From NCBI GenBank assembly GCA_032595685.2, contig CP159373.1, positions 3,189,907-3,253,906 of the forward strand: DNA of 64,000 nt, written 5' to 3'. Below, piece after piece: positions 31,576-62,170 of this stretch. The translations under genes and the position numbers were made by a program. Every line of letters begins with the position of its first letter. The first letter of the stretch is position 1. Origin of the DNA: Candidatus Electrothrix aestuarii. GTDB taxonomy: Bacteria; Desulfobacterota; Desulfobulbia; Desulfobulbales; Desulfobulbaceae. The notes beneath the pieces are model-generated. The model did no database searches. It was not told the origin of the DNA and was given only the letters and a program-made list of their open reading frames with translations.

Positions 31576-31707
31576 CAACCCCACCCTGTTCCACAGTATC
31601 TAGATTGTCCTTAAAAACTCTCAGCACGCTGATTTTAAATGAAAAAGTTATAAAAATATTGTAAAATATGCATACTTTTGACGTTCACCCCCTCATAAGG
31701 CATGCAC

Positions 31708-33249: not shown

Positions 33250-33263
33250 GGATGCTCTATCTA

Positions 33264-33947: not shown

Positions 33948-35404
33948 ATAAAGTTATTCCGTGGGATGAGTTCGCCATCAGATATTACCGAACATTGGAC
34001 CCGCGTCAGGGGCGACCTGCCAAAAATGCCAGATTGGTGATCGGCGCGTTAATCATTAAACATAAGTTGACGCTCAGTGACGAAGAAACCGTACTCCAGA
34101 TTCAGGAGAACCCCTATCTTCAGTATTTTGTTGGGTTTTCTTCTTTTCAAGACAAGCAACCTCTAGCTCCCAGCCTGTTTGTTGAGATTCGAAAACGGAT
34201 GGGAAAGGATGTCTTTTCTGCGTTTGAAGAAGTGATTTTGGAAAAACTTGCTCTCTCAAAGAAAAGTACGGCAAATGAAGATGAAAAAGAGGATAAGAGC
34301 GAGGAAGAGCGCGTTGAAAATAAGGGGAAAATGCTTGTCGATGCAACGGTTGCTGAGCAAGCGATTCGTTACCCGACTGATCTGAGTTTACTCAACGAAG
34401 CCCGTGAGATTTCCGAGCAGCTGATTGATGATCTGTACAAACAGAGTGACTACCCCAAAAAGCCCAGGACATATCGGAGAGTTGCTCGCAAAAACTACCT
34501 GAACCTGGCTAAAAAAAGAAACCAGGCAAAAAAAATCTGCGGCGCGGACTTCGGCAGCAATTACAGTACGTCCGAAGAAATATACGATATATTGAAGAGT
34601 TGCTTGGCAATGTTGGATCGGCACCTTTTCCACTTCCCCATCAGCAACAACGACAGTATTGGATCATTCAGCATGTGTATCGCCAGCAGGATGAGATGTA
34701 CAAAAAACGAAAACGACGTTGCGATGACCGAATTGTTTCCATTGCCCAACCTCATGTACGACCAATAGTTCGTGGGAAAGCAGGTAAAAATGTGGAGTTC
34801 GGTGCCAAACTCAGCGTGAGCATGGTCGATGGTTTGGCTTTTGTCGATCATATTGGTTGGGATGCCTTCAACGAAGGCACGGATTTGCAGGCGCAGGTGG
34901 AAAACTACAAACGCCGAAATGGCTACTATCCTGCTGCAGTGCTTGCTGATCAAATTTACGGAACAAGAGAAAATCGTAAATATCTCAAAGAGAAAGGCAT
35001 TCGATTTGGTGGTAAACGAATGGGCAGGTCCCCGAAAGAGACAGAAGAAAACAAAGAACGTCTTCGGGAACTGAAAGCACAACGGATTCGGGATAGTCGA
35101 GAACGGATCCCCATTGAGGGAAATTTGGCCAAGGAAAAAACGGCTACCGACTCAACTACATCCGGGCAAAACTTCAGAGAACCTCTGAAGCATGGATTAA
35201 CTGTATTTTCCTGGTCATGAATCTGATGGTTCTGCTCAGGAAGTTGCAGGAACAGCTTGAAAATTTATATCTTTCACGGTTTTTACTTTTACGCAGCCAG
35301 CTGAATCATATTAGCGCTCGATTTTTTGCGTTCTTTGAGCAAATGCCAAGGCAAGTCCTGCAGTATTGCCTGTATGAGAGGTTGGCTTTTTGAGGATGCT
35401 CTAT
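33948..35404 (+). mobile_element. IS-B copy 2: 5'-truncated, recombinant
   Basis: Lacks the first 201 bp, including the orfA start, because it abuts the IS-A right end. The homopolymer before the frame switch has eight A (34528-34535), so orfB is in the -1 frame, the usual arrangement for programmed frameshifting. OrfB is broken near 35119 by a missing base (GAGGGAAATTTGG) and ends early at 35220. Inactive. Confidence 0.7.
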
Positions 35405-35407
35405 CTA

Positions 35408-35841
35408 CACCGGACAATGTTGATACCGCCAATGGCACGGTTTTCTGCCATAACGAATGTTCTGTTCCTATGGAGTATGCGGGCGTTGACGAAGATCATC
35501 ACGAGTATAAATGCGCAGCAAATACAGGTGAATGCCTTCTTAAAGGAAGCTGCCCTCAATGTCGAAGCATATCATTAGACAGAGGCTTTTTCCAGCGAAT
35601 ACCTTACCATGTCGAGCAGATACGGGAGGCGCATGATATTCGCAAGAACTGTGAACGGCCTTTCAATCTGTTAAAGCATCAAACCGGTCTTGAAACCGTT
35701 CGGGTTCGCGGTCAGTCCGCAATCACAGTTCGATGTACATTCAGCAGCATCTCTTTGTTATTGTTAAAAATGGCAGGAACCCGCAAAAAAGAACCTGCTA
35801 AAAAGTCACCGCAACTGCCGCTCTTCAAAATGGCAGCATAA
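35408..35841 (+). pseudogene. IS-A transposase, C-terminal part (second copy)
   Basis: Duplicate of 33264-33697, offset by 2144 bp, with no visible coding change. Followed by the IS-A right-end repeat at 36078-36092. It has no N-terminal part in front: IS-B copy 2 precedes it directly. Confidence 0.65.
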
Positions 35842-36092
35842 CAGAAAGATCAAAGAAACAATGTAAATTATTGCAGCACCCAACAATACCCGTTTGCTCA
35901 TTTTTGCTGTTCCTGACAGTCGGCTTGTCCAAAAAACAGAGTCTTTGCCCATAGTGGTTTGAAAAAGGCTAAAATCCGCCTGGAAAGTGTTCGACATCAA
36001 GCTGCAGCAACACTGATAAACGAAAAAAAATGCTTATTGGGCATCTCGGACAACTGAAATTGCTCTATGCTGGGGTACTTTTCAACACCCTT

Positions 36093-37550
36093 ATAAAGTT
36101 ATTCCGTGGGATGAGTTCGCCATCAGATATTACCGAACATTGGACCCGCGTCAGGGGCGACCTGCCAAAAATGCCAGATTGGTGATCGGCGCGTTAATCA
36201 TTAAACATAAGTTGACGCTCAGTGACGAAGAAACCGTACTCCAGATTCAGGAGAACCCCTATCTTCAGTATTTTGTTGGGTTTTCTTCTTTTCAAGACAA
36301 GCAACCTCTAGCTCCCAGCCTGTTTGTTGAGATTCGAAAACGGATGGGAAAGGATGTCTTTTCTGCGTTTGAAGAAGTGATTTTGGAAAAACTTGCTCTC
36401 TCAAAGAAAAGTACGGCAAATGAAGATGAAAAAGAGGATAAGAGCGAGGAAGAGCGCGTTGAAAATAAGGGGAAAATGCTTGTCGATGCAACGGTTGCTG
36501 AGCAAGCGATTCGTTACCCGACTGATCTGAGTTTACTCAACGAAGCCCGTGAGATTTCCGAGCAGCTGATTGATGATCTGTACAAACAGAGTGACTACCC
36601 CAAAAAGCCCAGGACATATCGGAGAGTTGCTCGCAAAAACTACCTGAACCTGGCTAAAAAAAGAAACCAGGCAAAAAAAATCTGCGGCGCGGACTTCGGC
36701 AGCAATTACAGTACGTCCGAAGAAATATACGATATATTGAAGAGTTGCTTGGCAATGTTGGATCGGCACCTTTTCCACTTCCCCATCAGCAACAACGACA
36801 GTATTGGATCATTCAGCATGTGTATCGCCAGCAGGATGAGATGTACAAAAAACGAAAACGACGTTGCGATGACCGAATTGTTTCCATTGCCCAACCTCAT
36901 GTACGACCAATAGTTCGTGGGAAAGCAGGTAAAAATGTGGAGTTCGGTGCCAAACTCAGCGTGAGCATGGTCGATGGTTTGGCTTTTGTCGATCATATTG
37001 GTTGGGATGCCTTCAACGAAGGCACGGATTTGCAGGCGCAGGTGGAAAACTACAAACGCCGAAATGGCTACTATCCTGCAGCAGTGCTTGCTGATCAAAT
37101 TTACGGAACAAGAGAAAATCGTAAATATCTCAAAGAGAAAGGTATTCGATTTGGTGGTAAACGAATGGGCAGGTCCCCGAAAGAGACAGAAGAAAACAAA
37201 GAACGTCTTCGGGAACTGAAAGCACAACGAATTCGGGATAGTCGAGAACGGATCCCCATTGAGGGAAAATTTGGCCAAGGAAAAAACGGCTACCGACTCA
37301 ACTACATCCGGGCAAAACTTCAGAGGACCTCTGAAGCATGGATTAACTGTATCTTCCTGGTCATGAATCTGATGGTTCTGCTCAGGAAGTTGCAGGAACA
37401 GCTTGAAAATTTATATCTTTCACGGTTTTTACTTTTACGCAGCCAGCTGAATCATATTAGCGCTCGATTTTTTGCGTTCTTTGAGCAAAAGCCAAGGCAA
37501 GTCCTGCAGTATTGCCTGTATGAGAGGTTGGCTTTTTGAGGATGCTCTAT
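36093..37550 (+). mobile_element. IS-B copy 3: 5'-truncated
   Basis: Same 201-bp loss as copy 2, with eight A at 36673-36680. OrfB (36745-37539, 264 aa) is intact and in the -1 frame to orfA, but orfA has no start. Its right end is followed by TTA (37551-37553), which became the target of copy 4. Variants private to this copy include A at 37080 and an AAA-for-ATG change near 37489. Confidence 0.7.
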
Positions 37551-37657
37551 TTAGATTGTCCTTAAAAACTCTCAGCGCGCTGATTTTAAATGAAAAAGTT
37601 ATAAAAATATTGTAAAATATGCATACTTTTGACGTTCACCCCTCATAAGGCATGCAC

Positions 37658-38401
37658 ATGATCAGGTACACCAGTGACAGACAGCTTACACTTGAAGGAT
37701 TCAGCCTTCCCTTTGGAGGCAAACTGAACCCTGACAACAGATGGATCAAATGGCATAAAGTTATTCCGTGGGATGAGTTCGCCATCAGATATTACCGAAC
37801 ATTGGACCCGCGTCAGGGGCGACCTGCCAAAAATGCCAGATTGGTGATCGGCGCGTTAATCATTAAACATAAGCTGACGCTCAGTGACGAAGAAACCGTA
37901 CTCCAGATTCAGGAGAACCCCTATCTTCAGTATTTTGTTGGGTTTTCTTCTTTTCAAGACAAGCAACCTCTAGCTCCGAGCCTGTTTGTTGAGATTCGAA
38001 AACGGATGGGAAAGGATGTCTTTTCTGCGTTTGAAGAAGTGATTTTGGAAAAACTTGCTCTCTCAAAGAAAAGTACGACAAATGAAGATGAAAAAGAGGA
38101 TAAGGGTGAGGAAGAGCCCGTTGAAAATAAGGGGAAAATGCTTGTCGATGCAACGGTTGCTGAGCAAGCGATTCGTTACCCGACTGATCTGAGTTTACTC
38201 AACGAAGCTCGTGAGATTTCCGAGCAGCTGATTGATGATCTGTACAAACAGAGTGGCTACCCCAAAAAGCCCAGGACATATCGGAGAGTTGCTCGCAAAA
38301 ACTACCTGAATCTGGCTAAAAAAAGAAACCAGGCAAAAAAATCTGCGGCGCGGACTTCGGCAGCAATTACAGTACGTCCGAAGAAATTTACGATATATTG
38401 A
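37658..38401 (+). CDS. IS-B copy 4 orfA, transposase N-terminal part
   Basis: 247 aa from the second ATG of the frame. DUF772-like N-terminal domain and acidic linker, then the first catalytic Asp (LVDATVAEQ). The remaining catalytic residues are in orfB, which in this copy is in the +1 frame after seven A. A joined protein would need +1 or -2 slippage, or transcript slippage on the A-run. Confidence 0.7.
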   Translation: MIRYTSDRQLTLEGFSLPFGGKLNPDNRWIKWHKVIPWDEFAIRYYRTLDPRQGRPAKNARLVIGALIIKHKLTLSDEETVLQIQENPYLQYFVGFSSFQDKQPLAPSLFVEIRKRMGKDVFSAFEEVILEKLALSKKSTTNEDEKEDKGEEEPVENKGKMLVDATVAEQAIRYPTDLSLLNEAREISEQLIDDLYKQSGYPKKPRTYRRVARKNYLNLAKKRNQAKKSAARTSAAITVRPKKFTIY

Positions 38402-38405
38402 TGAG

Positions 38406-39200
38406 TTGCTTGATAATGTTGGATCGGCACCTTTTCCACTTCCCCATCAGCAACAACGACAGTATTGGATCATTCAGCATGTGTATCGCCAGCAGGATGA
38501 GATGTACAAAAAACGAAAACGACGCTGCGATGACCGAATTGTTTCCATTGCCCAACCTCATGTACGACCAATAGTTCGTGGGAAAGCAGGTAAAAATGTG
38601 GAGTTCGGTGCCAAACTCAGCGTGAGCATGGTCGATGGTTTGGCTTTTGTCGATCATATTGGTTGGGATGCCTTCAACGAAGGCACGGATTTGCAGGCGC
38701 AGGTGGAAAACTACAAACGCCGAAATGGCTACTATCCTGCTGCAGTGCTTGCTGATCAAATTTACGGAACAAGAGAAAATCGTAAATATCTCAAAGAGAA
38801 AGGCATTCGATTTGGTGGTAAACGAATGGGCAGGTCCCCGAAAGAGACAGAAGAAAACAAAGAACGTCTTCGGGAACTGAAAGCACAACGGATTCGGGAT
38901 AGTCGAGAACGGATCCCCATTGAGGGGAAATTTGGCCAAGGAAAAAACGGCTACCGACTCAACTACATCCGGGCAAAACTTCAGAGAACCTCTGAAGCAT
39001 GGATTAACTGTATTTTCCTGGTCATGAATCTGATGGTTCTGCTCAGGAAGTTGCAGGAACAGCTTGAAAATTTATATCTTTCACGGTTTTTACTTTTACG
39101 CAGCCAGCTGAATCATATTAGCGCTCGATTTTTTGCGTTCTTTGAGCAAATGCCAAGGCAAGTCCTGCAGTATTGCCTGTATGAGAGGTTGGCTTTTTGA
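38406..39200 (+). CDS. IS-B copy 4 orfB, transposase C-terminal part
   Basis: 264 aa as read from an internal ATG, though the frame is open upstream to the A-run and there encodes LRRGLRQQLQYVRRNLRYID, a natural continuation of orfA. It has the second catalytic Asp (AVLADQIYGTRENRKYLKEKG split over strand and helix) and Glu in RIPIEGKFGQGKNG. Catalytic residues are thus divided between orfA and orfB, so a fused product is needed for transposition. Confidence 0.7.
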   Translation: MLDNVGSAPFPLPHQQQRQYWIIQHVYRQQDEMYKKRKRRCDDRIVSIAQPHVRPIVRGKAGKNVEFGAKLSVSMVDGLAFVDHIGWDAFNEGTDLQAQVENYKRRNGYYPAAVLADQIYGTRENRKYLKEKGIRFGGKRMGRSPKETEENKERLRELKAQRIRDSRERIPIEGKFGQGKNGYRLNYIRAKLQRTSEAWINCIFLVMNLMVLLRKLQEQLENLYLSRFLLLRSQLNHISARFFAFFEQMPRQVLQYCLYERLAF

Positions 39201-39214
39201 GGATGCTCTATTTA

Positions 39215-39699
39215 GTCGAGTACTTAGATTAACCCCAGAAAACAGGTCGGAATAGTTTCTTCGGAGATTTTAACGCGAAAAAAAGCCATCATTACGGCTA
39301 CGGATAACCTTACTAATCCAGAAACGTGCTGCTTTTCAACACCCTTTCAAAGTCGCGCCAACAGCGACAATGCGAGAAATTCGTGCCAAGATTCTCAAGG
39401 GCGAATTTAAGAAAAAATTCCCTCAAACTGAACACCCCGTTAATCAGCGGGCAGCTTGAAAATTCATAGTCTTAAGCAAAATTGATTGATACGGCTGTTT
39501 CATCATGTGGAGCAGTACAAACTTACGACTGTCGAGCTCCTTAAACTGAATGAGAAAAAGATACTCTTTATAATATCCTGAACCGGTTTGTAAATCAAGG
39601 AGTGAGCAGAGTGAGGAAAGGAAGGTGTTACTGTGGAGGGCCGAAGCTAGAAAACCACCGACTTCAAGGAATGAAGCCGGTGGTTCAAAGAAAAGAAAC
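39215..39699. other. IS remnants between IS-B copy 4 and purC
   Basis: Contains a third CTTTTCAACACCCTT (39332-39346), the IS-A end repeat, in front of a sequence unlike the other IS-A ends, so a related but diverged element end. A short frame (39370-39459, starting MREIRAKILKGEF) has no recognised family. A hairpin near 39650-39690 is listed separately. Confidence 0.5.
39650..39690 (-). terminator. purC terminator or IS200/IS605-type right-end hairpin
   Basis: On the minus strand the stem CCACCGGCTTCA / TGAAGTCGGTGG (one mismatch, 5-nt loop) is followed by TTTT, so it would terminate purC. On the plus strand the same bases read GGAATGAAGCCGGTGGTTC, a form common at right ends of IS200/IS605 elements, where it belongs to the guide-RNA scaffold of TnpB. 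No tnpB or tnpA is left here. Confidence 0.55.
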
Positions 39700-42469: not shown

Positions 42470-43105
42470 TCAGGGACGTAATAAAAGCCACAGGATAGGG
42501 GGGATTGCTGAGGGGTTGCAGGCCTGCCATTTCAGCGTAAAAACTAATGCCTTATCTATGGTGTCCACGCTAATATAGCTGTCACTGCCCTCTGTCTGCA
42601 CCCTACTGTTTATTCGTAGGATAACATCTCGTGCCTGCGTCTGGCAGGCAGTATAATAACTGGGGTCCAGTGAGTCCAATTCTGTATAATTTATTCCGTT
42701 TGTCTCGTAAAATGTTGTTGTTTTAGTAATCTGGCTCTCTGTTTGACCGGCAAGAAAATATTCGCGATATAGTGCTGTCGCACCTTCGGCATATCCCCTC
42801 CAATCAGCAGTCAAAGTGGACACCTGAAAACCTGCCGGTACATGAACCGGCACAGCAAAGTTGCAGGAACTTTGCTTCAGACCGCTGACTGCGTTTATGG
42901 ATGGGTCTGCCGCGTCATACTGCTGAAACAAGATAGTTAGAGTGTTACTTCTCTCGCCTGCAACGGTAAACGATTTTTGCGGGCAGCCTGTACCTATTAC
43001 ATACATAGGTGCTTTGAAATACGGTTGCTCTTCAGCCGCGCAAGTGTGGTTGAAAACGAGTGCAGTAGCGGTAGCCAGAACTACAGAGAAAATGGGTTTT
43101 ATCAT
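42470..43105 (-). CDS. Secreted protein, DUF4360-like family, paralogue 4
   Basis: 211 aa with a Sec signal peptide. Core motifs shared by all four paralogues: YFKAP, GTGCP near residue 40, TLTILFQQYDAA, CNFAVPVHVPAGFQVSTLTADWRGYAEG and REYFLAGQ. Two conserved Cys (GTGCP and the SCNF position) probably pair. This copy is the most divergent: it lacks the RADDSPKGD segment, has an extra YYTACQ, and ends differently. No strong ribosome-binding site; the gap to the preceding copy is 37 nt, so it may be co-transcribed. The DUF4360 match is from memory of the GTGCP pattern, not a search. Confidence 0.65.
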   Translation of the reverse strand: MIKPIFSVVLATATALVFNHTCAAEEQPYFKAPMYVIGTGCPQKSFTVAGERSNTLTILFQQYDAADPSINAVSGLKQSSCNFAVPVHVPAGFQVSTLTADWRGYAEGATALYREYFLAGQTESQITKTTTFYETNGINYTELDSLDPSYYTACQTQARDVILRINSRVQTEGSDSYISVDTIDKALVFTLKWQACNPSAIPPILWLLLRP

Positions 43106-43142
43106 TTTTATTGGCAGAGTCTTTGCTTATGCGGCTGTTTTT

Positions 43143-43715
43143 TTAATTGTCAGCGCATTTTCGCCATGTTAGTTTTAAACTCATCATGTTTTTAATCGCA
43201 ATGTAACTGGGATTGCTCTCCGCCCGTATTGCAACGTTAACTCGCATAGGAACGTCTGTTCCACACTTCCCCCATACAGCAGTGCCATGCATAAGGTTGT
43301 CCCGCACGGTAAAGTCGCCTTTCGGGGAATCGTCAGCCCTTGGTCCTCTTTGACCGGCAAAAAAATACTCTCGACGCAGCTTGGTTCTCCCTTCGGCGTA
43401 TCCTTTCCAGGTCGCAGTCATAGTAGAAACCTGAAGACCCTGCGGTACATGGACAGGTATGACAAAGCTGCAGGAGGTACGCATCGTCCCGCTGGTAGCA
43501 TTATCTTTCGGCCTAGCTGCATCAAATTGATCAAATAAGATGGTTACAGTATCCTTGTTGTCCTCTGGAACAGTAATAGAATTGAATCCTGGACAACCTG
43601 TGCCTCTAAATTTTATCGGGGACTTGAAGTATACGGGAGAAGAAGAGAATGCGTAGGTGGTGGTAAACAGGATGCTGGCGAGGGCAGATAGAATAACCGT
43701 GTAGCATTTTCTCAT
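43143..43715 (-). CDS. Secreted protein, DUF4360-like family, paralogue 3
   Basis: 190 aa, signal peptide, then YFKSPIKFRGTGCPG, FDQFDAARPKDNATSG, CSFVIPVHVPQGLQVSTMTATWKGYAEG and FAGQRGPRADDSPKGD. It ends in a short basic LTWRKCADN with a third Cys. Closest to paralogue 1. Function unknown; a beta-rich extracellular fold is likely from the alternating pattern. Confidence 0.68.
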   Translation of the reverse strand: MRKCYTVILSALASILFTTTYAFSSSPVYFKSPIKFRGTGCPGFNSITVPEDNKDTVTILFDQFDAARPKDNATSGTMRTSCSFVIPVHVPQGLQVSTMTATWKGYAEGRTKLRREYFFAGQRGPRADDSPKGDFTVRDNLMHGTAVWGKCGTDVPMRVNVAIRAESNPSYIAIKNMMSLKLTWRKCADN

Positions 43716-43919
43716 AGTTTCATTCCTGTTAAGAACCAGAGAACCTCAGCAGAGAGAAGCAGGGCTTTTACAATCAATCGCTAAGATCTTAACGACATGG
43801 TCTTTAAACGAAAGACTACCTTGTTTTTCAAATTTTGGCTCTCTGATAAAAATAAGAAGCCCTGGCATCCAAAAGATGGCAGGACTTTAAAATATAAATA
43901 ACGACCTGCTGTGTCTCTG

Positions 43920-44501
43920 TCAATTACATTTCCTTGACTTCAAATGAAAAATTATCTTATTTTTCAAGTCAAGCGTGTCCACGGCGATATAGCTAGGGCT
44001 ACTTGCCGCCCGTACTGAGCTATTGATTCGTATAATCACATTTCCTGCTCCGCATTTGCTCCAAGTCGTATGCATCAAATTGTCCCGCAAGGAAAAGTCA
44101 CCTTTCGGGGAATCGTCAGCTCTTGGTCCTCTTTGGCCAGCAAAAAAATATTCGCGATGCAGCTTGGTCTTCCCCTCAGCGTATCCCCTCCAGTCCGCAG
44201 TCATAGTGGAAACCTGCCAACCCGCTGGCACATGAACCGGTATGGCAAAACTGCATGCGGTGCGCATCATACCGCTGGCAGCATTATTCTTCGGTCTTGC
44301 GGCATCAAATTGATCAAACAAAACTGTCAGGGTATCAGTGTTTTCACCTGAAACAGACATTGAATTATTCCCCGGACAACCTGTACCTCTTGCTTTCACA
44401 GGAGATTTGAAATACACAGAAGAACCTGCCAATGCTTGGCTGGCGACTAGTGCAATACTGGCAACCAATACTGCAAGAGTGAAGGCCTGTATTTTCTTCA
44501 T
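43920..44501 (-). CDS. Secreted protein, DUF4360-like family, paralogue 2
   Basis: 193 aa. Signal peptide (cleavage after SQALA near residue 25), the same motif order as its neighbours, and a C-terminal IIFHLKSRKCN. GAGGAG lies before the ATG, and a gap of about 200 bp follows, so this copy may have its own promoter or terminator. Confidence 0.7.
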   Translation of the reverse strand: MKKIQAFTLAVLVASIALVASQALAGSSVYFKSPVKARGTGCPGNNSMSVSGENTDTLTVLFDQFDAARPKNNAASGMMRTACSFAIPVHVPAGWQVSTMTADWRGYAEGKTKLHREYFFAGQRGPRADDSPKGDFSLRDNLMHTTWSKCGAGNVIIRINSSVRAASSPSYIAVDTLDLKNKIIFHLKSRKCN

Positions 44502-44620
44502 AATTTTTCTCCTCTCTATTGTTGATTCTTGACAAGAATGGATAAGCCCCGATCATCAATATGATGACGATAGAGGCTTGAAATGCTGCTTAGAAACAAT
44601 TTAACAACTTGCTTTCTCTA

Positions 44621-45199
44621 TCAACGGCCGCATTTTTTCCACTTCAAATGGAAAACTATCTTGTTTTTCAGATCAACCGTGTCAACTGCGATATAGCTGG
44701 GGTTACTTGTGGCGCGTACACTCGCATTAATTCGCATAGGGACGTCTGCTCCACATTTGCCCCATACAACAGTGCCATGTGCCAGATTATCATGCAAGGT
44801 ATAATCGCCTCTCGGGGAATCGTCAAGCCTTGGTCCTCTTTGACCGGCAAAAAAATACTCACGATGCAGCTTGGTTCTCCCTTCGGCGTATCCCCTCCAG
44901 TCCGCAGTCATGGTGGATACCTGAAGACCTTGTGGCACATGAACTGGTACAACAAAACTGCAGGAGGCACGCATCATACCGCTTGCAGCATTATTCTTCG
45001 GTCTTGCGGCATCAAATTGATCAAACAAAACAGTCATAGTGTCGGTACCTTCGCCAGAAACACTCACTGAATTGGGTCCAGGACACCCTGTGCCTCTAAA
45101 TTTCACAGGTGCTTTGAAATACACGGGCGGGCCAGCAAATGCTTGGCCTGCAAAAACTGTTAACACGACAAGAGCAAAAAAAACTTTCAACAGCTTCAT
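44621..45199 (-). CDS. Secreted protein, DUF4360-like family, paralogue 1
   Basis: 192 aa and the first gene of the array. AAGGAGG precedes the ATG, the best ribosome-binding site of the four. Signal peptide cut after GQAFA. Mature part: YFKAPVKFRGTGCPG, TMTVLFDQFDAARPKNNAASG, CSFVVPVHVPQGLQVSTMTADWRGYAEG, FAGQRGPRLDDSPRGD and the C-terminal FHLKWKKCGR. Long stretches are identical to paralogue 2, showing recent duplication. Confidence 0.72.
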   Translation of the reverse strand: MKLLKVFFALVVLTVFAGQAFAGPPVYFKAPVKFRGTGCPGPNSVSVSGEGTDTMTVLFDQFDAARPKNNAASGMMRASCSFVVPVHVPQGLQVSTMTADWRGYAEGRTKLHREYFFAGQRGPRLDDSPRGDYTLHDNLAHGTVVWGKCGADVPMRINASVRATSNPSYIAVDTVDLKNKIVFHLKWKKCGR

Positions 45200-45564: not shown

Positions 45565-46866
45565 TTATTTGGTCATGAAGTCGGCGTAGGCATGAGATCC
45601 GTGCTCGCCATAATCCAGCCCCTCAATCTCTTCCTCTTCGGTAACCCGGAGGCCAACGGTCATTTTGATGACTGTAAAGAGAATGAACGCGCAACCGAAG
45701 CTCCAGGCAAAGGCCGCGCCAATACCGATCAGCTGTGTGGTGATGATCTTGGCGGTTACACCTTCCATGTTGAAGATACCAGCAGCCAAGGTTCCCCAAG
45801 CACCGCAGACGCCGTGGACAGAAACTGCCCCCACCGGGTCATCGATGTGCATGCGATCGATGATGACAACCGAGAAGACAACCAGAACACCAGCGATTGC
45901 CCCGATGATTGCAGAGCTGGTCGGGCTGACATTGGCACAACCGGCGGTGATACCTACCAGACCAGCCAGTGCGCCGTTGAGACTCATGCTGATGTCCGGC
46001 TTCTTGAACATAACCCAAGAGGTGAGCATGCCGGTAACGGCACCGGCACAAGCTGCCAAGTTGGTGTTAACAAAGATCATGGCGATATCAGTGATGCCTG
46101 CGGTGGTGGAACCGGGGTTGAATCCGAACCAACCGAGCCAGAGGATGAAGACACCAACAGCTGCCAGCGGGATGTTGTGACCAGGAATTGCCTTTACTTC
46201 ACCGTTCTTGCCGTATTTTCCTACACGTGGTCCAATGACGATAGCGCCTGCCAGAGCTGCCCAGCCACCGATAGAGTGAACAACGGTTGAGCCTGCGAAA
46301 TCAATGAAACCCATTCCTTCAAGCCAGCCACTACCGTGGAACAGGCTGCCCCATGCCCAGCTACCGAAAACCGGGTAAATAAAGGCGCAAAGTGCAGCGC
46401 TGTAGATCAGGTAGCTGGTGAATTTGGTACGCTCAGCCATTGCACCGGAAACGATGGTTGCAGCGGTTGCAGCAAAAACACACTGGAACATCCAGAAGGC
46501 AAGAACCCAAGGATCTCCGCCCACTTTGAAATCGCTGAGGAAAAAACCGTCAGTTCCGAACCAACCTGTACCACTGGTTCCAAACATCAGGCCAAAACCG
46601 ATGGCCCAGAAGAACAGAGAACCCATACTGAAGTCCATCAGGTTCTTCATCATAATATTAATGGCGTTCTTGGCCCGGGTAAAACCAGCCTCAACCATAG
46701 CAAAACCAGCCTGCATAAAGAAAACCAGAGCAGCAGCGACCAAAGTCCACACATAGTCAAGATTGGTCTGTACACCCTGTGCGGTGGGTTCGTCACCGGC
46801 ACCGGCTAAAGTTGGTAACAGAGAGAGCGTAAGCAGAGCTCCGGTTAGCAGCATTTTTTTCTTCAT
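45565..46866 (-). CDS. amtB: Ammonium transporter AmtB, with signal peptide
   Basis: 433 aa from the ATG at 46866 (AAGGTGAG upstream). A cleavable signal peptide is followed by eleven membrane segments. Amt marks: FFMQAGFAMVEAGFTRAKN, FWAIGFGLMFG, GSWAWGSLFHGSGW, the twin pore His in VVHSIGGWAALAG and SVHGVCGAWGTLAAG, and the cytosolic tail EIEGLDYGEHGSHAY to which GlnK binds. It moves ammonium inward as a trimer. The gene ends the glnK - small ORF - amtB operon. The frame extends to a GTG at 46875, but the ATG is better placed. Confidence 0.95.
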   Translation of the reverse strand: MKKKMLLTGALLTLSLLPTLAGAGDEPTAQGVQTNLDYVWTLVAAALVFFMQAGFAMVEAGFTRAKNAINIMMKNLMDFSMGSLFFWAIGFGLMFGTSGTGWFGTDGFFLSDFKVGGDPWVLAFWMFQCVFAATAATIVSGAMAERTKFTSYLIYSAALCAFIYPVFGSWAWGSLFHGSGWLEGMGFIDFAGSTVVHSIGGWAALAGAIVIGPRVGKYGKNGEVKAIPGHNIPLAAVGVFILWLGWFGFNPGSTTAGITDIAMIFVNTNLAACAGAVTGMLTSWVMFKKPDISMSLNGALAGLVGITAGCANVSPTSSAIIGAIAGVLVVFSVVIIDRMHIDDPVGAVSVHGVCGAWGTLAAGIFNMEGVTAKIITTQLIGIGAAFAWSFGCAFILFTVIKMTVGLRVTEEEEIEGLDYGEHGSHAYADFMTK

Positions 46867-46902
46867 TATTCTCACCTTATTTCTGTATAACTTAAGAAAA
46901 AA

Positions 46903-50395: not shown

Positions 50396-52252
50396 TCAGT
50401 TGTCTTCTTGCCAATAGAACTCAATATTCTGAAAAGGCAGGTTAATTGCCTGGATGTGATAAAAGGCGTTCTTACGATGTTTACTATAATGATATTCGCG
50501 CAGGGCCTTGGTGGTGATAAAGAAAATATTTCGCACACCATCCATATAGAACGGGGCATGACTGATCAGTAGCTGGGAGATATCCAGCACCGCATAGCCC
50601 CCTTCCTGTTGGGCAGCAGCAAAAAAGGCGTTTCTGTAGAGCGAATAGTCAAAGATATGTTCCTGTTTGGTGCGCTGCTCGTCACCATAGACCACAGCAG
50701 TATCCCGCAACAGCATCAGGTGGACGTAGTTATTGATTTCGTCCTCACAGGCAAGGCTGAATACATCTTTTCGTACCCCGAGTAAGATCGTACTGCTCGG
50801 GTCCAGTACCTCAATGTCCATCTCATTTTTTAGGATTGCCGAGTGCAGACGGTATTCCACCCCGTTTATCCGTAGAAAGAACAACTCGTCGCTGTACAGG
50901 GCCTGGAGTTTTGCATCATGGCGGATGATTTCGCTCAGAGTATTGGTGTCAGTAAAAAGCTCTGGGCTGATGACTCGCTCCTTTTTCACGTAGCCCTGTT
51001 GCAGTTTCTTGATATTATTATTCAGAAAAAGACGTTGGGCATACGCAGTGATTTCCTCTGGAGGAAGAGGCGGCCAGCGGTCCGGCGCATCTTGGTAGAG
51101 CTGCTTCTGGAGCAGGCAGGTGTAGCTCTTTTTCAGCCCGGTCTCTTGACGGACAAAAGTGCAGCCCAGGTTGCAATGCGGTAGCCACGGACAGCAGGCG
51201 CAGTCATCATCAATGTCGAGGAGATTTTCGTTGCGCTCCATCATATTCCAGCCGTTGCCAATCACCGCCTCCACGCCGTCGGTGAAGATATTGCCGTAGC
51301 GATATGCGGGTGATGACTGACCGCGTGGGCAGGAAAAGACCTCGCCGTCAAACTGGAGCAGGAAGAACTTGCCCCCGCAATTAACTGAAGAGCAACAATA
51401 TTCCGGGGTAAATTCCTTGAACCACTCGGTGCGTAAGGCATTTTCCAAGGGAGTACCGACAAAGGCCTTTTTTACTGCCTGATAGAAACGGACCTGTTCA
51501 GCATCGCTGAGCATGGTTGCGCCAAGGTCCTGCTGGCTGAATCTACCTCTGTTCTTGTTCGAGTCAAAGCCGAACATGACATTGAAGCGGCTCATGTCCA
51601 GGCCGATCTCATAGTGGAGGAAGTTGATCTCGGCGATAAATTCATCAATCGCATCCAGGTGGGCGCGGGTGACCACGCAGGAGATCTTTTTGTTATGGGG
51701 ATAGGTGGCCAGGAGTTTGAGATTTTCCTTGATTTGGGCGAGGGTGCTGCGTCCCTGTTTATCTCGGCGAAATTGTCCGTGCAGACGAAGGGGGAGGTCC
51801 ACGCTGCCGCTGATTGAGACCCGGTGCTTAATAAAGACATCCCAATGTCGCTGAAAATCAAAGAGGTTGGTTTTGATGTGCGGCGGACTGACCCGGAAGC
51901 CCTGGGCTTTGATCTCTTCGCCATATTCTGCATAATGGCGGGCGGCTATGCTGAAGAGGCCGTCAAGGAGCTCTGAAGGAAGGGTAGTGACCTCGCCACC
52001 GTGAAAGGAAAGGTTAAAGGGCAGGTAGCCATGCGCTAACAGCTTCTCCAGGGCCGTGTTCAAGGTGCCGAGCACTTTGTCCGGCTCCGGCTTGGTAGCG
52101 GTCAGGTCACCCAGATAGCAGTAGCGGCAGCTCATGTTGCAGAACTTAGTCGGCACATAGAGCAGATGGATGGCCTTGCGGAACGGGCTTGTATCCTGGT
52201 TTACTTGCTGGTCTGCTTTCTCCTTAGTGTCAGCTTGTGCATTTGGCATCAT
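50396..52252 (-). CDS. Radical SAM/SPASM-type protein with long C-terminal extension
   Basis: 618 aa. The radical SAM cluster motif CNMSCRYC is at residues 38-45, followed by LSFHGGEV and ISGSVDLPLRLHG as in peptide-modifying enzymes of the anSME/SPASM group. The auxiliary-cluster Cys follow: EYCCSSVNCGG (about 300), FSCPRG, DDDCACCPWLPHCNLGC and YTCLL. About 200 extra residues come after the SPASM part: a mixed fold with INGVEYRLHSAIL and YHIQAINLPFQNIEFYW, unlike anything I know. Such enzymes usually modify a small peptide or protein. Candidate substrates are the neighbours, above all the Asn-tailed protein at 53122. The start follows the upstream stop by 12 nt. Confidence 0.85.
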   Translation of the reverse strand: MMPNAQADTKEKADQQVNQDTSPFRKAIHLLYVPTKFCNMSCRYCYLGDLTATKPEPDKVLGTLNTALEKLLAHGYLPFNLSFHGGEVTTLPSELLDGLFSIAARHYAEYGEEIKAQGFRVSPPHIKTNLFDFQRHWDVFIKHRVSISGSVDLPLRLHGQFRRDKQGRSTLAQIKENLKLLATYPHNKKISCVVTRAHLDAIDEFIAEINFLHYEIGLDMSRFNVMFGFDSNKNRGRFSQQDLGATMLSDAEQVRFYQAVKKAFVGTPLENALRTEWFKEFTPEYCCSSVNCGGKFFLLQFDGEVFSCPRGQSSPAYRYGNIFTDGVEAVIGNGWNMMERNENLLDIDDDCACCPWLPHCNLGCTFVRQETGLKKSYTCLLQKQLYQDAPDRWPPLPPEEITAYAQRLFLNNNIKKLQQGYVKKERVISPELFTDTNTLSEIIRHDAKLQALYSDELFFLRINGVEYRLHSAILKNEMDIEVLDPSSTILLGVRKDVFSLACEDEINNYVHLMLLRDTAVVYGDEQRTKQEHIFDYSLYRNAFFAAAQQEGGYAVLDISQLLISHAPFYMDGVRNIFFITTKALREYHYSKHRKNAFYHIQAINLPFQNIEFYWQEDN

Positions 52253-53121: not shown

Positions 53122-53553
53122 TTAGCCGTTATTGTTTCCGTTGTTGTTATTATTATTGTTGTTGTTATTGTTATTATTATTGTTGTTGCTGCTGAAGCCA
53201 GAGTCCAGATAGGTCGCTGTTGCTCTGGTCGTTTTTTCGCCTTCAGGGCCAAGGTAGTAGAGCGGATCAATTCGGGTTATTCGCTTGCCGTCAAAGCGGA
53301 GATAGTCTGTGCCCTTTGCGCCGGGCATCTTTTCTGCCCCACTCATGCCATCAATGGTAAAGAGATAAAGGGTGTCGTTGCGGAAGAGCACGTAAGGGTA
53401 TCGCAGGTCATTGGAGATGAGGTGGGAGGTAATAATCTGTTGGGCTGCTGGAGTGTCTTTGATGCCGGTCTGTCGCAGATAGCTGCCCAGCTTTTTTTTC
53501 ATCGCCTCTTCATCTTTGATCGCTGAGGACGATTCCATTTCCAAATCTATCAT
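53122..53553 (-). CDS. Small protein with C-terminal polyasparagine tail (candidate modified peptide)
   Basis: 143 aa from the ATG at 53553, chosen for AGGAGG 8 nt upstream (a longer open frame from 53811 overlaps the acetyltransferase gene). It has no signal peptide. The N-terminal 115 residues look folded: a helix (AMKKKLGSYLRQTGIKDTPAAQQI), then strands (YVLFRNDTLYLFTIDG, DYLRFDGKRITRIDPLYYLG). The C-terminus is GFSS, sixteen Asn, G, three Asn, G. Asn codons are mixed AAC and AAT, so it is not a pure trinucleotide repeat. A leader-like body with a low-complexity tail next to a radical SAM enzyme recalls ribosomally made, modified peptides. Precursor status is inferred. Confidence 0.6.
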   Translation of the reverse strand: MIDLEMESSSAIKDEEAMKKKLGSYLRQTGIKDTPAAQQIITSHLISNDLRYPYVLFRNDTLYLFTIDGMSGAEKMPGAKGTDYLRFDGKRITRIDPLYYLGPEGEKTTRATATYLDSGFSSNNNNNNNNNNNNNNNNGNNNG

Positions 53554-53629
53554 GACGCGCTCCTCCTGCGCTGGGAATGTTATGAGGGGTGGAAACTTTG
53601 TTGGATACGATAGCGTAGGAAGATGGAAG

Positions 53630-54157
53630 CTATTTGTCAAGAATAATATCTTGTTGTAGTTTGGTAGGAAGGGGCGGGGGGAGGGAGTAATACGCACCTC
53701 CTTCCCCGCTCTTGGTAGTTTTTTTCTTGCGTACAAAACCAAGTTTAGAGATAAGCGCCTTGCTCGGCAGGTTGTTGTCTGTGATGAACACCGAGAAACG
53801 CTCGTTGCCAATTATGGAGGACTTCTTTTTCAGAATAGCTTGGCATGCTTCCTGGGCATAGCCGTTGCCCCAGTATTCTTGGCGGAAGTAGTAGCCAAAA
53901 TCCCACTCCTCATTGATCCATTGGAAACCGCATATGCCGATGAGAAGATCGTTTTTTTGCAATGCCACGCCTCGTCGAGCTGTGCCTTGGCCTTGAAGGG
54001 CCATCTGGTGTTGGAGCCAATCGGCTGATTCAGCCTTGCTCATTGGGCGACGCGGGCCGATGAAGCGCATGACATCGGGGGAGGAGAACATTGTGGTGAG
54101 GGAATCGAGGTCAGAGTGGGTAAGGTCTCTGAGGAGTAGGCGCTTGGTTGTGATCAT
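53630..54157 (-). CDS. GNAT acetyltransferase, RimJ/RimL-like
   Basis: 175 aa. Starts MITTKRLLLRDLTHSDLDSL, the usual opening of RimJ/RimL proteins. It has VALQKNDLLIGICGF, then the acetyl-CoA-binding stretch YFRQEYWGNGYAQEACQAI and FVRKKKTT near the end. The extra Pro-rich C-terminal tail is unusual. It transfers acetyl from acetyl-CoA to an amine, perhaps a protein N-terminus. It is about 75 nt upstream of the Asn-tailed protein gene, and could belong to the operon. Confidence 0.8.
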   Translation of the reverse strand: MITTKRLLLRDLTHSDLDSLTTMFSSPDVMRFIGPRRPMSKAESADWLQHQMALQGQGTARRGVALQKNDLLIGICGFQWINEEWDFGYYFRQEYWGNGYAQEACQAILKKKSSIIGNERFSVFITDNNLPSKALISKLGFVRKKKTTKSGEGGAYYSLPPPLPTKLQQDIILDK

Positions 54158-58884: not shown

Positions 58885-58923
58885 AAAAAAATACCCCCGC
58901 CGCAAGACTGCGACAGGGGTACA
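58885..58923 (-). terminator. Rho-independent terminator of the Nif11-type operon
   Basis: Minus-strand hairpin with TACCCC/GGGGTA and CGCA/TGCG arms followed by seven T. It lies 30 nt downstream of the Nif11-like gene and resembles the terminator at 57536-57572. Confidence 0.85.
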
Positions 58924-58954
58924 TGAGCCTACTCTCAATGAACCTAAATCTAAA

Positions 58955-59176
58955 TCAGGTCCACCAGATGGAGCGCTTGGGAGGGTTGCCGTATTTCTCG
59001 AATACGTCACCAGCTTCTTTGAGCACTTCGTCAAGCTCTTCTACTGTAAAAGTGTAACCATCTTCTGCCGCCAGAGCGACGAATTCTTCCTTGGTACCAG
59101 GAACATCGTATTTTGCACGAACATGCTTGTCCTCGCCACCTGCAATCAACAGCTCTTCAACGTTTTTTTTAGCCAC
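58955..59176 (-). CDS. Nif11-like small protein
   Basis: 73 aa from a GTG at 59176, with AAGGAGG 7 nt upstream; a longer frame to 59293 has no such site and overlaps the next gene. The pattern VEELLIAGGEDKHVRAKYDV, FVALAAEDGYTFTVEELDEVL fits Nif11 domains, known as small proteins of nitrogen-fixation clusters and as leader parts of modified peptides. There is no Gly-Gly or Cys-rich core at the end; it stops after NPPKRSIWW and Thr, so a free-standing Nif11 protein is more likely than a peptide precursor. Last gene of a sigma-54-preceded operon. Confidence 0.78.
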   Translation of the reverse strand: MAKKNVEELLIAGGEDKHVRAKYDVPGTKEEFVALAAEDGYTFTVEELDEVLKEAGDVFEKYGNPPKRSIWWT

Positions 59177-59225
59177 AGGAGTGCCTCCTTCCTTACTTAG
59201 GTTATAGTAATGCCTATCCGTATTG

Positions 59226-59537
59226 CTACGGGATAAATTCAATATTAATTTGTTCGTCCTCTCCTTGGGTGATGGCATACTCGCACCCATCAAGGAAGGC
59301 CATTTCTCTTTCCGCTGCAGCCAGCTTCAACGCCAAAACGGTTTTCTCGGCTGGCTCCTTTTTTGCCTCACGGTTTATATGCACCAAAACCTTGTTGCTC
59401 TCGTCAGTGAATTGGAGGAGTAGGGCGTTATGATCGAGAAAAATAAGATCTTCATAGGCATAGGAAATGCCCATCCCAACTGCTTCCAGGATTTCCTTAA
59501 CAACGCCAAGTGGTTTTATTGCTATCTGCTCAGTCAT
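59226..59537 (-). CDS. Conserved small protein of the NifB-like operon
   Basis: 103 aa. Two halves: a strand-rich beginning (KPLGVVKEILEAVGMGISYAYEDLIFLDHNALLLQF, interrupted by turns) and a helix (EKTVLALKLAAAEREMAFL) with a final acidic strand. No Cys pairs and no signal peptide. The family is not recognised. It lies 22 nt after the HEPN-like gene and before the Nif11-like gene; this suggests a nitrogen-metabolism or metal-cluster role. Confidence 0.6.
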   Translation of the reverse strand: MTEQIAIKPLGVVKEILEAVGMGISYAYEDLIFLDHNALLLQFTDESNKVLVHINREAKKEPAEKTVLALKLAAAEREMAFLDGCEYAITQGEDEQINIEFIP

Positions 59538-59559
59538 TACGCTTTACTCCGTCATGTAT

Positions 59560-59994
59560 TCATCTGCCAAGTTCTTCCGTTACCAGGGTATGCATTTGCT
59601 TACCCAGATCAAGCATTCCCGGGATTTTTTCCGGTCCTGGAGGGGTGATCTTAAATCCATCAAGATCACATATCTCTTGATACTTGTCCATTTCCAGTAA
59701 TCCCTCACCTAATCCTGCCATCTTACCTGGAAAGGTGCTCTCCATAGCCTCGACCAAGTCTGTCATCGTATGGTTGTATGGCATGGTGCCACGTTGCATC
59801 AGGACAGCCATGACAAATTTTTCAATGGCCATAGCTATCACATTGTAGAGGATTTCTGGGGTGAAAATCTTTTTCTGCTTTGTATGGGCCGCAGTTGCGG
59901 TGTTCAGGTATCTTTCCCCGTCACTGAGGAATTCTTCCCAACCTTTAATCGGTTCAAGTCCCGCCAGGGGGATCAGTTCCGGTTCAGTTATCAT
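59560..59994 (-). CDS. HEPN-like helical protein
   Basis: 144 aa, mostly helices. The order LNTATAAHTKQKKIFTPEILYNVIAMAIEKFVMAVLMQRG, YNHTMTDLVEAME fits a HEPN-type four-helix bundle, with a YNHT motif at the usual R-x4-H region but without the Arg, so RNase activity is unlikely. The start codon lies 1 nt after the acetyltransferase stop, so translation is coupled. HEPN-like proteins of this kind appear near nif genes in some anaerobes; a role here is inferred. Confidence 0.6.
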   Translation of the reverse strand: MITEPELIPLAGLEPIKGWEEFLSDGERYLNTATAAHTKQKKIFTPEILYNVIAMAIEKFVMAVLMQRGTMPYNHTMTDLVEAMESTFPGKMAGLGEGLLEMDKYQEICDLDGFKITPPGPEKIPGMLDLGKQMHTLVTEELGR

Positions 59995-59995
59995 T

Positions 59996-60478
59996 TTACC
60001 CTATTCCTTTTGTTTTACGTAGGCAGATCAATTCAGTGGGTCGGTAACCTATGTGGTGATAAAAGCCCAGTGCTCTGGTGTTGTTGCGATCAGCCAGAAG
60101 CTGGATTCTGGTTGCGCCTTGGAGCGCAGACCATTCTCTGAGTGACTCCATGAGTCTCCTGCCGGTGCCTTGTGCCTGCCAGGCGGGCAGGATGACAACA
60201 TCTTCCACCAAGGCGGAAAGCCCGCCTTCAGCGGTGGAAATGAGCAATTGAGCTGTACACATGCCTATAATCCGCCCCTGTCGTTCGGCCACCAGAACCA
60301 CAGCCTCAGGGTTGTGTAAGAGGAGTCTCAAGCCCCGCTTTTGTTTCTCAGCATTGAAGTTGAAATCCTTTTCAATACTGAATAAAACCTCCAGCAGAAA
60401 GACCAAACCAGTGAGGTCCTCTTCCCGTGCTCTGCGGATCACTATTTTTCCGGTGATATCCGGCATTATTCCGCTCAT
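59996..60478 (-). CDS. GNAT acetyltransferase
   Basis: 160 aa. IRRAREEDLTGLVFLLEVLF is the usual opening; the acetyl-CoA pyrophosphate loop is QAQGTGRRLMESL near residue 105, followed by RNNTRALGFYHHIGYRPTEL. The substrate may be a small amine or a protein. The gene is 12 nt after the ferredoxin-like gene and 1 nt before the HEPN-like gene, so it clearly belongs to the operon. Confidence 0.83.
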   Translation of the reverse strand: MSGIMPDITGKIVIRRAREEDLTGLVFLLEVLFSIEKDFNFNAEKQKRGLRLLLHNPEAVVLVAERQGRIIGMCTAQLLISTAEGGLSALVEDVVILPAWQAQGTGRRLMESLREWSALQGATRIQLLADRNNTRALGFYHHIGYRPTELICLRKTKGIG

Positions 60479-60490
60479 GGATTCGCTCTC

Positions 60491-60796
60491 TCAGCTTTCC
60501 AGCTTGTAATCTGCTGCTGGTTCACCGTCTTCCAGGCCATCCAGGATGGCATCAACGGCTTCTTCGCTGTCCACTCCGCCGAACCACCAGTTCTCAGGTT
60601 GGATAACCAGAACCGGTCCCTTCTCGCATTGCTTCAGGCAGGTGGTGCCGCTAACCAAGCAGTCCAGTCCGCGATCCAGTATTTCTTCTTCAAGATATTG
60701 CAGCAGTCCTTCACTTTGTTTGTGACAGATGCCTTTTTTATCTCCTGCCGCACGGAAGCTTTGGCAGACAAGGACCTGCCGTTCTGAAATTGCCAT
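60491..60796 (-). CDS. [2Fe-2S] thioredoxin-like ferredoxin
   Basis: 101 aa with the four Cys of thioredoxin-fold [2Fe-2S] proteins: CQSFR near residue 11, GICHKQ near residue 24, and TTCLKQCEKGPVLVIQPE near residues 53-57. The C-terminal end is acidic. Such ferredoxins occur next to nifB and related genes in many diazotrophs. AAGGAG lies 9 nt before the ATG. About 136 nt separate it from the NifB/NifX-like gene upstream. Confidence 0.83.
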   Translation of the reverse strand: MAISERQVLVCQSFRAAGDKKGICHKQSEGLLQYLEEEILDRGLDCLVSGTTCLKQCEKGPVLVIQPENWWFGGVDSEEAVDAILDGLEDGEPAADYKLES

Positions 60797-60932
60797 TGTG
60801 TTTGTTCTCCTTTTTCTCGTGAGATAGAAATGCTTGGCAAGGTGCCTCGCATTTTCATTTATTGTTGTTTCGACCTGTTATTTTGGGTCGGGATATATAG
60901 TTGCTATCCTTTCCTTTCGGGAGGGTAACGAT

Positions 60933-62087
60933 TTATTTTTTACACTTCTTCTTTTTGCCGCCGCCATAAAGCACATCAATTGTGCCTTCGATATTCTCTT
61001 CGGACAGCAGAACCTTTACGCCGAGATCATCCAATATTTTTTGTGGATTCTTACCTGCATGGGTTGCCAGCAGGGCAAAGCAGTCGTGCAGGCATTCCTT
61101 GGCCAGGGCCTCCCAGCGGGTATCGCCGCTGCCTGCGTCCGGTGTGGGGCGTGTCTCCAGGAGGCAGGCAAGCCCGTCTTCGCGGGGCCCATAAATCAGG
61201 ATCTGGGTGGCTTGGCCGAGATGGAGGTCAATATCCATACCGTTGGTGCTTACTACTGCCACATTGGGGCGTTCTTTGCTCGGTTGCGGCAAGAGAGTGG
61301 TCGCATTCTGGAAGTCTCCTCCAGATGGCGGGGGCAGATGTAAGTCCACATCATCAGTAACTGTCAGGTGAGCAGCAGCTGCTTGTTTTGCGCTTTCCAG
61401 GAGAGCCGTATCACATGCCTCTAATTTTTCTTCCTCAGAGACCGGTTCAAAGGGAATCAATGTTATGGAAGATGCTCCCCATGCAGCGGTTTTCTCAGCT
61501 ATGGCGCTGATGTGTTCATCATTAACGCCTGGGTAAACCGTGGTATATATATTAACCAGGATTCCTGCTTTTTTGAGGGAGGCAAGTGCTTTTTCCTGTT
61601 CCTGGAGCAAAAGACCCACAACCTCAGGGAGAGGGATAGTTCTTTTGCCAGGACGAATCCACGCATATATCTTTTTTAAAATGTCTTCAGACACGGCCTC
61701 AACCTGAAGGTTGACTTGGGCAATGCCTTTGCTGGCTAAATCTCCAGCAAGTGATGCAGCATTCAGTCCGATGCTTGTTAATCTGACAGGGCAATCCGCA
61801 TATTTTTCTTTGAGAAGATCCAAAAGTGGGAGGAGGAGCTCCGGGGCTGCCAAGGCATCACCGGGGCCGCTGATATTTACTCCATGAACTTCCTTTCCTC
61901 CTTTAATAAGATCCCCTATCCATGCAACCGCCTCGCCAGGCTGGAGAGCGAGATCAGGCTTCTCAATGGCTCCAAAACGTTTTTTGTTATTTGCCTGCGG
62001 AGCAGCTGGCAGAACCAACATGTCGATCTGCATGGATTTTTCGCAAGCCTTATTGCTCTCTGTATCTGATAACGGCTGAGTACTCAT
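60933..62087 (-). CDS. NifB/NifX-like protein that lacks the radical SAM cysteines
   Basis: 384 aa from the ATG at 62087 (AGGGG upstream; the longer open frame to 62351 runs through the sigma-54 promoter). Residues 22-40 read IDMLVLPAAPQANNKKRFGA, where NifB has LPxAPxCNxxCxxC: the three cluster Cys are replaced by Ala32, Lys36 and Gly39 with spacing kept. The barrel continues as in NifB (VHGVNISGPGDALA, CPVRLTSIGLNA, VNLQVEAVSEDILKKIYAWIRPG, ITLIPFEPV split by loops). The C-terminal part (about 275-375) is a NifX/FeMo-cofactor-binding-type domain: NVAVVSTNGMDIDLHLGQA, then GSGDTRWEALAKECLHDC and EGTIDVLYGG, ending in a Lys-rich tail. It cannot bind the SAM cluster, so a carrier or scaffold role is more likely than catalysis. 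Confidence 0.85.
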   Translation of the reverse strand: MSTQPLSDTESNKACEKSMQIDMLVLPAAPQANNKKRFGAIEKPDLALQPGEAVAWIGDLIKGGKEVHGVNISGPGDALAAPELLLPLLDLLKEKYADCPVRLTSIGLNAASLAGDLASKGIAQVNLQVEAVSEDILKKIYAWIRPGKRTIPLPEVVGLLLQEQEKALASLKKAGILVNIYTTVYPGVNDEHISAIAEKTAAWGASSITLIPFEPVSEEEKLEACDTALLESAKQAAAAHLTVTDDVDLHLPPPSGGDFQNATTLLPQPSKERPNVAVVSTNGMDIDLHLGQATQILIYGPREDGLACLLETRPTPDAGSGDTRWEALAKECLHDCFALLATHAGKNPQKILDDLGVKVLLSEENIEGTIDVLYGGGKKKKCKK

Positions 62088-62155
62088 AATGTTTCCCCTA
62101 GGGTTTAAGGACTCTAATCGATCTTTTGTAGTCAGTACTGTTTGCCCTCTAATTA

Positions 62156-62170
62156 GCAAGTGGTGTGCCA
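62156..62170 (-). promoter_or_regulatory. Sigma-54 promoter of the NifB-like operon
   Basis: Minus strand reads TGGCAC-N5-TTGC, with N5 being ACCAC, identical in the conserved positions to the glnK promoter. It lies about 70 nt upstream of the ATG at 62087 and supports that start. Confidence 0.85.

Follow-up and report, generated by a model that had tools for sequence, protein, structure and literature searches.

An inactive NifB paralogue next to nifK in Desulfobacterota as a candidate cofactor chaperone of molybdenum nitrogenase

Our studies concern a window of 64,000 nucleotides that is part of the single 5.1-Mb contig of Candidatus Electrothrix aestuarii, a cable bacterium, and in particular an operon headed by a paralogue of nifB. 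NifB is the synthase of the precursor of the iron-molybdenum cofactor (FeMo-co) and relies on radical S-adenosylmethionine (SAM) cysteines that the paralogue has lost. The sequence comparisons presented here favor, though only somewhat, the view that the protein, an ancient paralogue of NifB turned pseudoenzyme, serves as a cofactor chaperone of molybdenum nitrogenase.

The operon and its genome

Six minus-strand genes were confirmed in the window, namely the nifB paralogue, a [2Fe-2S] ferredoxin gene (fdx), and genes for a GNAT-family acetyltransferase, a HEPN-like protein, a 103-aa protein and a Nif11-domain protein (Table 1). The intergenic gaps, in order from the paralogue, are 136, 12, 1, 22 and 49 bases; the tight packing described in the original prediction therefore does not include the first gap. 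Where that prediction placed a terminator, a hairpin of 14 pairs followed by a T run is indeed present (58922-58891). However, such patterns number three in the region and average 4.6 in shuffled sequence, and the pattern is no proof by itself. The mechanical open reading frame of the paralogue extends past the promoter to a TTG at 62351 and, if the promoter is assigned correctly, translation should therefore start near 62087.

Table 1. Features of the nifB paralogue operon (positions within the window)
Feature	Position	Strand	Basis
nifB paralogue lacking radical-SAM cysteines, 384 aa	60933..62087	-	ATG at 62087; TIGR01290, PF02579, structure model
NifB-fold barrel of the paralogue, residues 22-245	61353..62024	-	
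Former CX3CX2C site of the paralogue: Ala32, Lys36, Gly39	61971..61994	-	alignment with intact NifB
NifX-like domain of the paralogue, residues 271-376	60960..61277	-	PF02579
His289 codon of the paralogue	61221..61223	-	aligned with His of HFG motif, NafY core
fdx: thioredoxin-like [2Fe-2S] ferredoxin	60491..60796	-	NF041612 4.2e-15; profile match to 1f37 3e-10
GNAT-family acetyltransferase	59996..60478	-	PF00583 1e-14
HEPN-like protein, 144 aa	59560..59994	-	PF05168 in aligned members, not the window's own
103-aa protein, no assigned family	59226..59537	-	
Nif11-domain protein, 73 aa, GTG start	58955..59176	-	PF07862 1.9e-14
Terminator-like hairpin and T run	58891..58922	-	pattern match only
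-24/-12 (sigma-54) promoter site TGGCACACCACTTGCT, TGGCAC-N5-TTGCT	62155..62170	-	

A normal nifB and nifH were sought elsewhere in the genome and both were found. An intact NifB with the cysteine motif lies 137 kb from the window (C1:3388569), and a nifH scoring over the family cut-off lies at a distance of about 676 kb (C1:2574030; a TAA at the end of its match is taken as the stop codon). A potential for nitrogen fixation in cable bacteria is described in the available parts of an earlier report (PMC10030654).

Loss of catalytic residues and retention of the NifX-like domain

The paralogue matches the NifB model TIGR01290 with an E-value of 4.3e-27, yet its 94.9 bits do not reach the equivalog cut-off of 343.65. 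Alignment with the intact NifB encoded elsewhere in the genome placed Ala32, Lys36 and Gly39 in the exact columns of Cys31, Cys35 and Cys38, confirming that the three cysteines have been replaced at the kept spacing. The loss goes further than the three cysteines first reported, since all nine cluster-ligand positions of NifB that were checked are lost in the window's protein and the loop behind the CX3CX2C site is absent. At the positions of Cys30, Cys63, Cys129, His43, Cys274 and Cys277, which are K1/K2 cluster ligands of Methanosarcina acetivorans NifB according to the portions consulted of PMC6053413 and PMC7145814, it has N, a gap, R, V, V and H, respectively (Cys264 has no place in the alignment).

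Relatives were collected by scanning one genome per GTDB species with a pattern, and the results below refer to the best 80 of 127; relatives in other phyla are possible. Their titles name Desulfobulbaceae, Desulfocapsa, Electrothrix, Electronema, Desulfovibrionaceae and others, or unplaced delta-/Proteobacteria metagenome-assembled genomes. CX3CX2C occurs in none of 69 aligned paralogue sequences, the window's included. At least two of the three SAM cysteines are kept in 0 of 67 paralogue rows of the tree, versus all three in 31 of 31 intact NifB sequences. All 67 inactive rows lie on one side of one branch with a Shimodaira-Hasegawa-like approximate likelihood ratio test value of 100, so the loss of catalysis looks single and old. 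The tree was a quick one (LG+G4, midpoint root, no bootstrap, no approximately unbiased test), and long-branch effects may act between the two groups.

Missing catalytic residues are what a decaying gene or a sequencing error would also produce. This explanation has next to no probability, since low ratios of nonsynonymous to synonymous substitution (dN/dS), conservation across genera and families, the one tree group and invariant residues rule out a pseudogene or error. Comparison with two congeners gave dN/dS values of 0.13/1.88 and 0.15/1.85, dS being close to saturation, and comparison with the near-identical genome G063 gave 0.009/0.045, a ratio of 0.2. Judged by these comparisons, the paralogue is under purifying selection.

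The structure model indicates that the NifB barrel fold is retained, and the GPGD turn is nearly unchanged (G in 68, P in 69, G in 69 and D in 67 of 69 sequences). The paralogue and NifB share common descent. With this in mind, we considered whether the barrel still holds an [Fe-S] cluster or SAM and donates electrons or a cluster to the ferredoxin or to NifB. The GPGD turn is in keeping with this, as is the retention of at least two of Cys11, His24 and Cys111 (numbering of intact NifB) in 9 of 67 tree rows. However, none of the nine checked ligand positions is kept in the window's protein, Cys382 of the C-terminal tail is found in only 41 of 69 sequences, and we regard this role as improbable.

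Possible K-cluster ligands (Cys11, His24, Cys111 and Cys261) occur without the SAM cysteines in some copies (among them L119 9923-11095, L126 8591-9769 and L135 9926-11080), indicating that catalysis could go while cluster ligands stayed. Copies of this kind are not limited to the base of the tree, and the position of two of them inside it (L084 and L091) suggests that the ligands were lost more than once.

The C-terminal part of the paralogue matches PF02579 with 30.6 bits (cut-off 26.3), as do 66 of 69 aligned sequences at E 0.001. This NifX-like domain is the best conserved part of the protein, with a mean pairwise identity among 34 paralogues of 65% versus 41% in the barrel. Intact NifB shows the reverse (71% in the domain and 77% in the barrel). 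Both His289 and Cys336 are invariant (69/69). His289 aligns with the histidine of the HFG motif in 1p90, which we take to be the NafY core, the residue presumably being His121. In the parts of PMC13128457 and PMC11938142 that deal with these proteins, the cofactor is bound by His35 of NifX and His121 of NafY, and NifY and NafX are without that histidine.

A displaced section of the nif operon

Gene orders at the relatives' loci reject the idea that the operon is unrelated to nif. In locus L040 the order is nifH, nifI1, nifI2, nifD, nifK, the nifB paralogue, fdx, the GNAT, HEPN and 103-aa genes, nifE, nifN and nifB; nifH, nifD, nifK, nifE and nifB scored over NCBI cut-offs, nifN was called by position and a sub-cut-off score, and nifI1 and nifI2 by inspection of the sequence. 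In 71 of 80 loci, nifK immediately precedes the paralogue; of the remainder, seven belong to the cable-bacterium group and two begin at a contig end. The paralogue is immediately followed by fdx in 78, the remaining two being at contig ends. Both genes flank it in 70, and nifK-paralogue-fdx is the fixed core. The partner genes vary in order (GNAT in 69 loci, HEPN in 68, 103-aa in 48 and Nif11 in 33). The exact six-gene order, whose conservation the original prediction had proposed to check, is a minority arrangement (16/80), but the neighborhood is not unique to the window's genome. The window's operon is thus a displaced section of the nif operon itself, a relation that had been missed.

Intact nifB is likewise followed by fdx in genomes G107 and G361, with a weak HEPN match and a GNAT gene after it in G107. 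In this arrangement (L182 7127-9730), fdx, the weak HEPN match and GNAT directly after intact nifB are the genes that accompany the paralogue elsewhere. This points to duplication of an old nifB-fdx block, after which one copy lost catalysis, although the order of these events is inferred.

Among 73 genomes of the same family, the paralogue is present in 39, of which 35 have nifH over the cut-off. Both genes occur in 35, the paralogue only in 4, nifH only in 4 and neither in 30 (Fisher p 5e-12, uncorrected for kinship). When nifH at contig ends is counted, the corresponding numbers are 38, 1, 5 and 29. Strong matches (E < 1e-97) were obtained in 16 genomes of a 395-genome sample of the phylum, and a seventeenth, G363, was recognized on inspection. 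Every copy in this sample whose surroundings were read sits between nifK and fdx, including three families outside the order (f18, f43 and f80).

The perfect -24/-12 site reported before the operon was confirmed, and TGG(C/T)AC-N5-TTGC lies 70-95 bases before the paralogue in 12 of 12 cable-bacterium genomes (two with TGGTAC). The same site is found within 300 bases of the paralogue in 0 of 71 other loci, one of which has only 25 bases upstream. With a background rate of about 0.019 per 620 bases, this distribution places the site beyond chance. In two cable-bacterium genomes (G059 and G060) nifHDK still precedes the paralogue yet the site is present, so the promoter goes with the cable bacteria, in most of which the block lies apart from nifHDK. 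A NifA-type site (TGT-N10-ACA) was not found within 350 bases in the window; it is present in 3 of the 12 cable-bacterium genomes.

One other strict -24/-12 match occurs in the window, at 47549-47534, upstream of an ammonium-transporter gene (45565-46875, PF00909). A second such gene (PF00909) is divergent from the paralogue, running from about 62794 off the window end at 64000. The original prediction held that the operon handles metal clusters or nitrogen status in an undescribed way; the nitrogen part is supported only indirectly, by the sigma-54 site, the divergent ammonium-transporter gene and the GNAT and HEPN neighbors.

These observations bear on the possibility that the paralogue is a regulatory pseudoenzyme, which pairs with intact NifB or NifDK and, with the GNAT protein and NifI1/NifI2 (the PII pair) as partners, restrains cofactor synthesis or the activity of nitrogenase once ammonium is back. 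The modeled retention of the NifB fold would suit such a partner, as would the sigma-54 site with its divergent ammonium-transporter gene, the GNAT gene in most loci and the fact that the operon includes both nifI1 and nifI2 in the majority of loci with sufficient flanking sequence. In contrast, a mere inhibitor would not need an invariant cofactor-site histidine, the Desulfovibrionaceae loci L119 and L135 retain the paralogue and fdx without GNAT or HEPN, and the module lies apart from nifHDK in the window's genome. We therefore consider regulation unlikely, though less so than cluster or SAM holding.

A candidate cofactor chaperone and its partners

The original prediction of a non-catalytic cofactor carrier or regulator stands in its first part, a non-catalytic cofactor-handling protein being the best reading, with a carrier more probable than a regulator. 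Because the catalytic cysteines are gone and the putative cofactor histidine is kept, the paralogue probably carries cofactor rather than builds it. As a chaperone, it would ligate NifB-co or FeMo-co through His289, and the dead barrel, made next to NifK, could offer NifDK or NifEN a surface for docking, much as apo-NifDK is served by the separate N-terminal domain of NafY. The protein would hold or hand over cofactor during nitrogenase maturation, and the adjoining ferredoxin may act on the same complex. In most cable bacteria, the block has left nifHDK and carries its own sigma-54 promoter.

More tentatively, dead NifB could have been recruited in Desulfobacterota to the nitrogenase maturation complex, as its dedicated subunit or chaperone, with the radical-SAM loss coming first, a K-cluster-holding stage following, and finished cofactor now being bound only via the NifX domain. 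The paralogue would then be a two-domain carrier uniting what NifB and NafY do separately elsewhere.

The paralogue shares with NifB the barrel, the GPGD turn and a C-terminal NifX-like domain with the same histidine. Unlike NifB, it is without the SAM-cluster cysteines and the loop behind them, its window copy is without the checked K1/K2 ligands, and it scores far under the cut-off. With the NafY/NifY/NifX chaperones it shares the NifX-like domain and cofactor histidine, and NafY likewise has two domains. However, its N-terminal part is a dead NifB barrel and not the sterile-alpha-motif domain of NafY. The position next to nifK resembles that of nifY, which we understand to lie behind nifK in Azotobacter vinelandii and Klebsiella. 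NafY is not in the list of structure matches (VIA) for the model of the paralogue, but that list is dominated by the barrel and its lack of NafY rules nothing out. Unlike NifX, the paralogue gives no match at E 0.001 to the NifX equivalog TIGR02663; it is not among the 23 matches in the 73 family genomes, none of which is over the cut-off. The only match to this model in the window's genome is the intact NifB.

Several observations weigh against a chaperone role. The alignment to NafY has little strength, its E-value being 0.0023 by profile and 0.026 with the single domain, a comparison in which RNA-polymerase chains of no relation reach 0.03. The histidine may also be merely inherited, as a NifX-like domain is part of intact NifB. 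Nine of the 73 family genomes encode a NifX-like protein in addition to the paralogue, in seven of them beside nifB; this weakens the idea of a general NifX replacement, and the paralogue is not a simple one. Two further stand-alone PF02579 proteins of the window's genome (L189, G000:C1:3488594-3488860; L190, G000:C1:364098-364364) could be alternative carriers. No intact NifB match was found in four genomes with the paralogue (G028, G061 and G067, which are 69-76% complete, and G068, 96%). Further, 4 to 5 family genomes with nifH are without the paralogue, as is the plasmid nif cluster of Nitratidesulfovibrio vulgaris L2 (nifK-fdx-nifE), indicating that it is an accessory not required everywhere. 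Finally, in the cross-linking results available from PMC8561814, an A. vinelandii relative of fdx did not cross-link to the MoFe protein.

The traffic of NifB-co and FeMo-co among NifB, NifEN and NifDK is an active question, mostly addressed in A. vinelandii. The paralogue offers a natural separation of the scaffold and carrier roles of NifB from its chemistry, and its copies show ligand loss in graded steps. It might also serve as an additional component when nitrogenase is engineered into other hosts.

Among Desulfobacterota, many diazotrophs retain an inactive NifB next to nifK; the publications consulted leave it unremarked or list it as a second nifB. We found no description of it as an inactive NifB in a search of an open-access library, judged mostly by titles and abstracts. 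Pseudodesulfovibrio nif clusters have been described with nifB_1 and nifB_2, both treated as NifB with motif loss unmentioned in the parts available (PMC11505543), and our comparison with 'nifB_1' is by description only. In the corresponding parts of PMC5715403, a survey set aside 28% of its 'NifB' entries, most of them without Cx3Cx2C and with a NifX domain, and took them as misnamed NifX. Overlap with those entries is likewise judged by description, and a plain NifX misnamed NifB is rejected for the paralogue because the full NifB barrel is present. Counting nifB genes by name overcounts catalytic NifB. A separate annotation matter was seen in N. vulgaris RCH1 (L168 4007-5551), where the NifB region is annotated only for its C-terminal part despite an open 514-aa frame.

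Among the partner proteins, fdx has four invariant cysteines (28/28). In these and in its nif context, it resembles the [2Fe-2S] ferredoxins of the Clostridium pasteurianum and Azotobacter types (NF041612 and NF041613). In contrast to those, it scores under both cut-offs (56.2 vs 150 bits and 35.6 vs 195 bits, respectively). The C. pasteurianum member of this family binds the MoFe protein, and a conserved acidic stretch of fdx (positions 36-38) may correspond, unaligned, to the acidic residues named in the accessible sections of that report (PMC8561814). Fitness data for Desulfovibrio vulgaris, as far as the source text covers them, showed the nif cluster DVUA0007-0016 to be needed on N2, with DVUA0010 without data; the tag of the ferredoxin is not identifiable there and no inference was drawn (PMC10102598).

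Of 58 aligned members of the HEPN-like family, 19 match PF05168 (best 6.1e-6); the window's own protein has no Pfam match. The RNase-type motif RX4-6H is not conserved (18/58), and the profile gave nothing convincing against PDB sequences. The 103-aa protein has no consistent Pfam match, and its model (predicted local distance difference test score 85.2) had no PDB fold match with E < 0.001, the listed TM-scores being < 0.5.

Other features were observed in the window. A 618-aa radical-SAM protein (50396-52252, PF04055) keeps CX3CX2C; its long C-terminal part matches nothing in Pfam. A CO-dehydrogenase-like protein (Prismane/CODH family) lies beside ferredoxin-like and FAD-oxidoreductase-like genes, the latter two called by eye (8472-12095). 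A stretch with seemingly interrupted transposase frames occurs in four almost identical copies, at spacings of about 2.1, 2.1 and 1.7 kb (31689-39224; PF13586 in the one tested). Four tandem paralogous, exported-looking proteins of 190-211 aa are encoded at 42470-45199 (the one tested is DUF4360), and a frame at 53122-53811 ends in a simple repeat made up of many consecutive asparagine codons.

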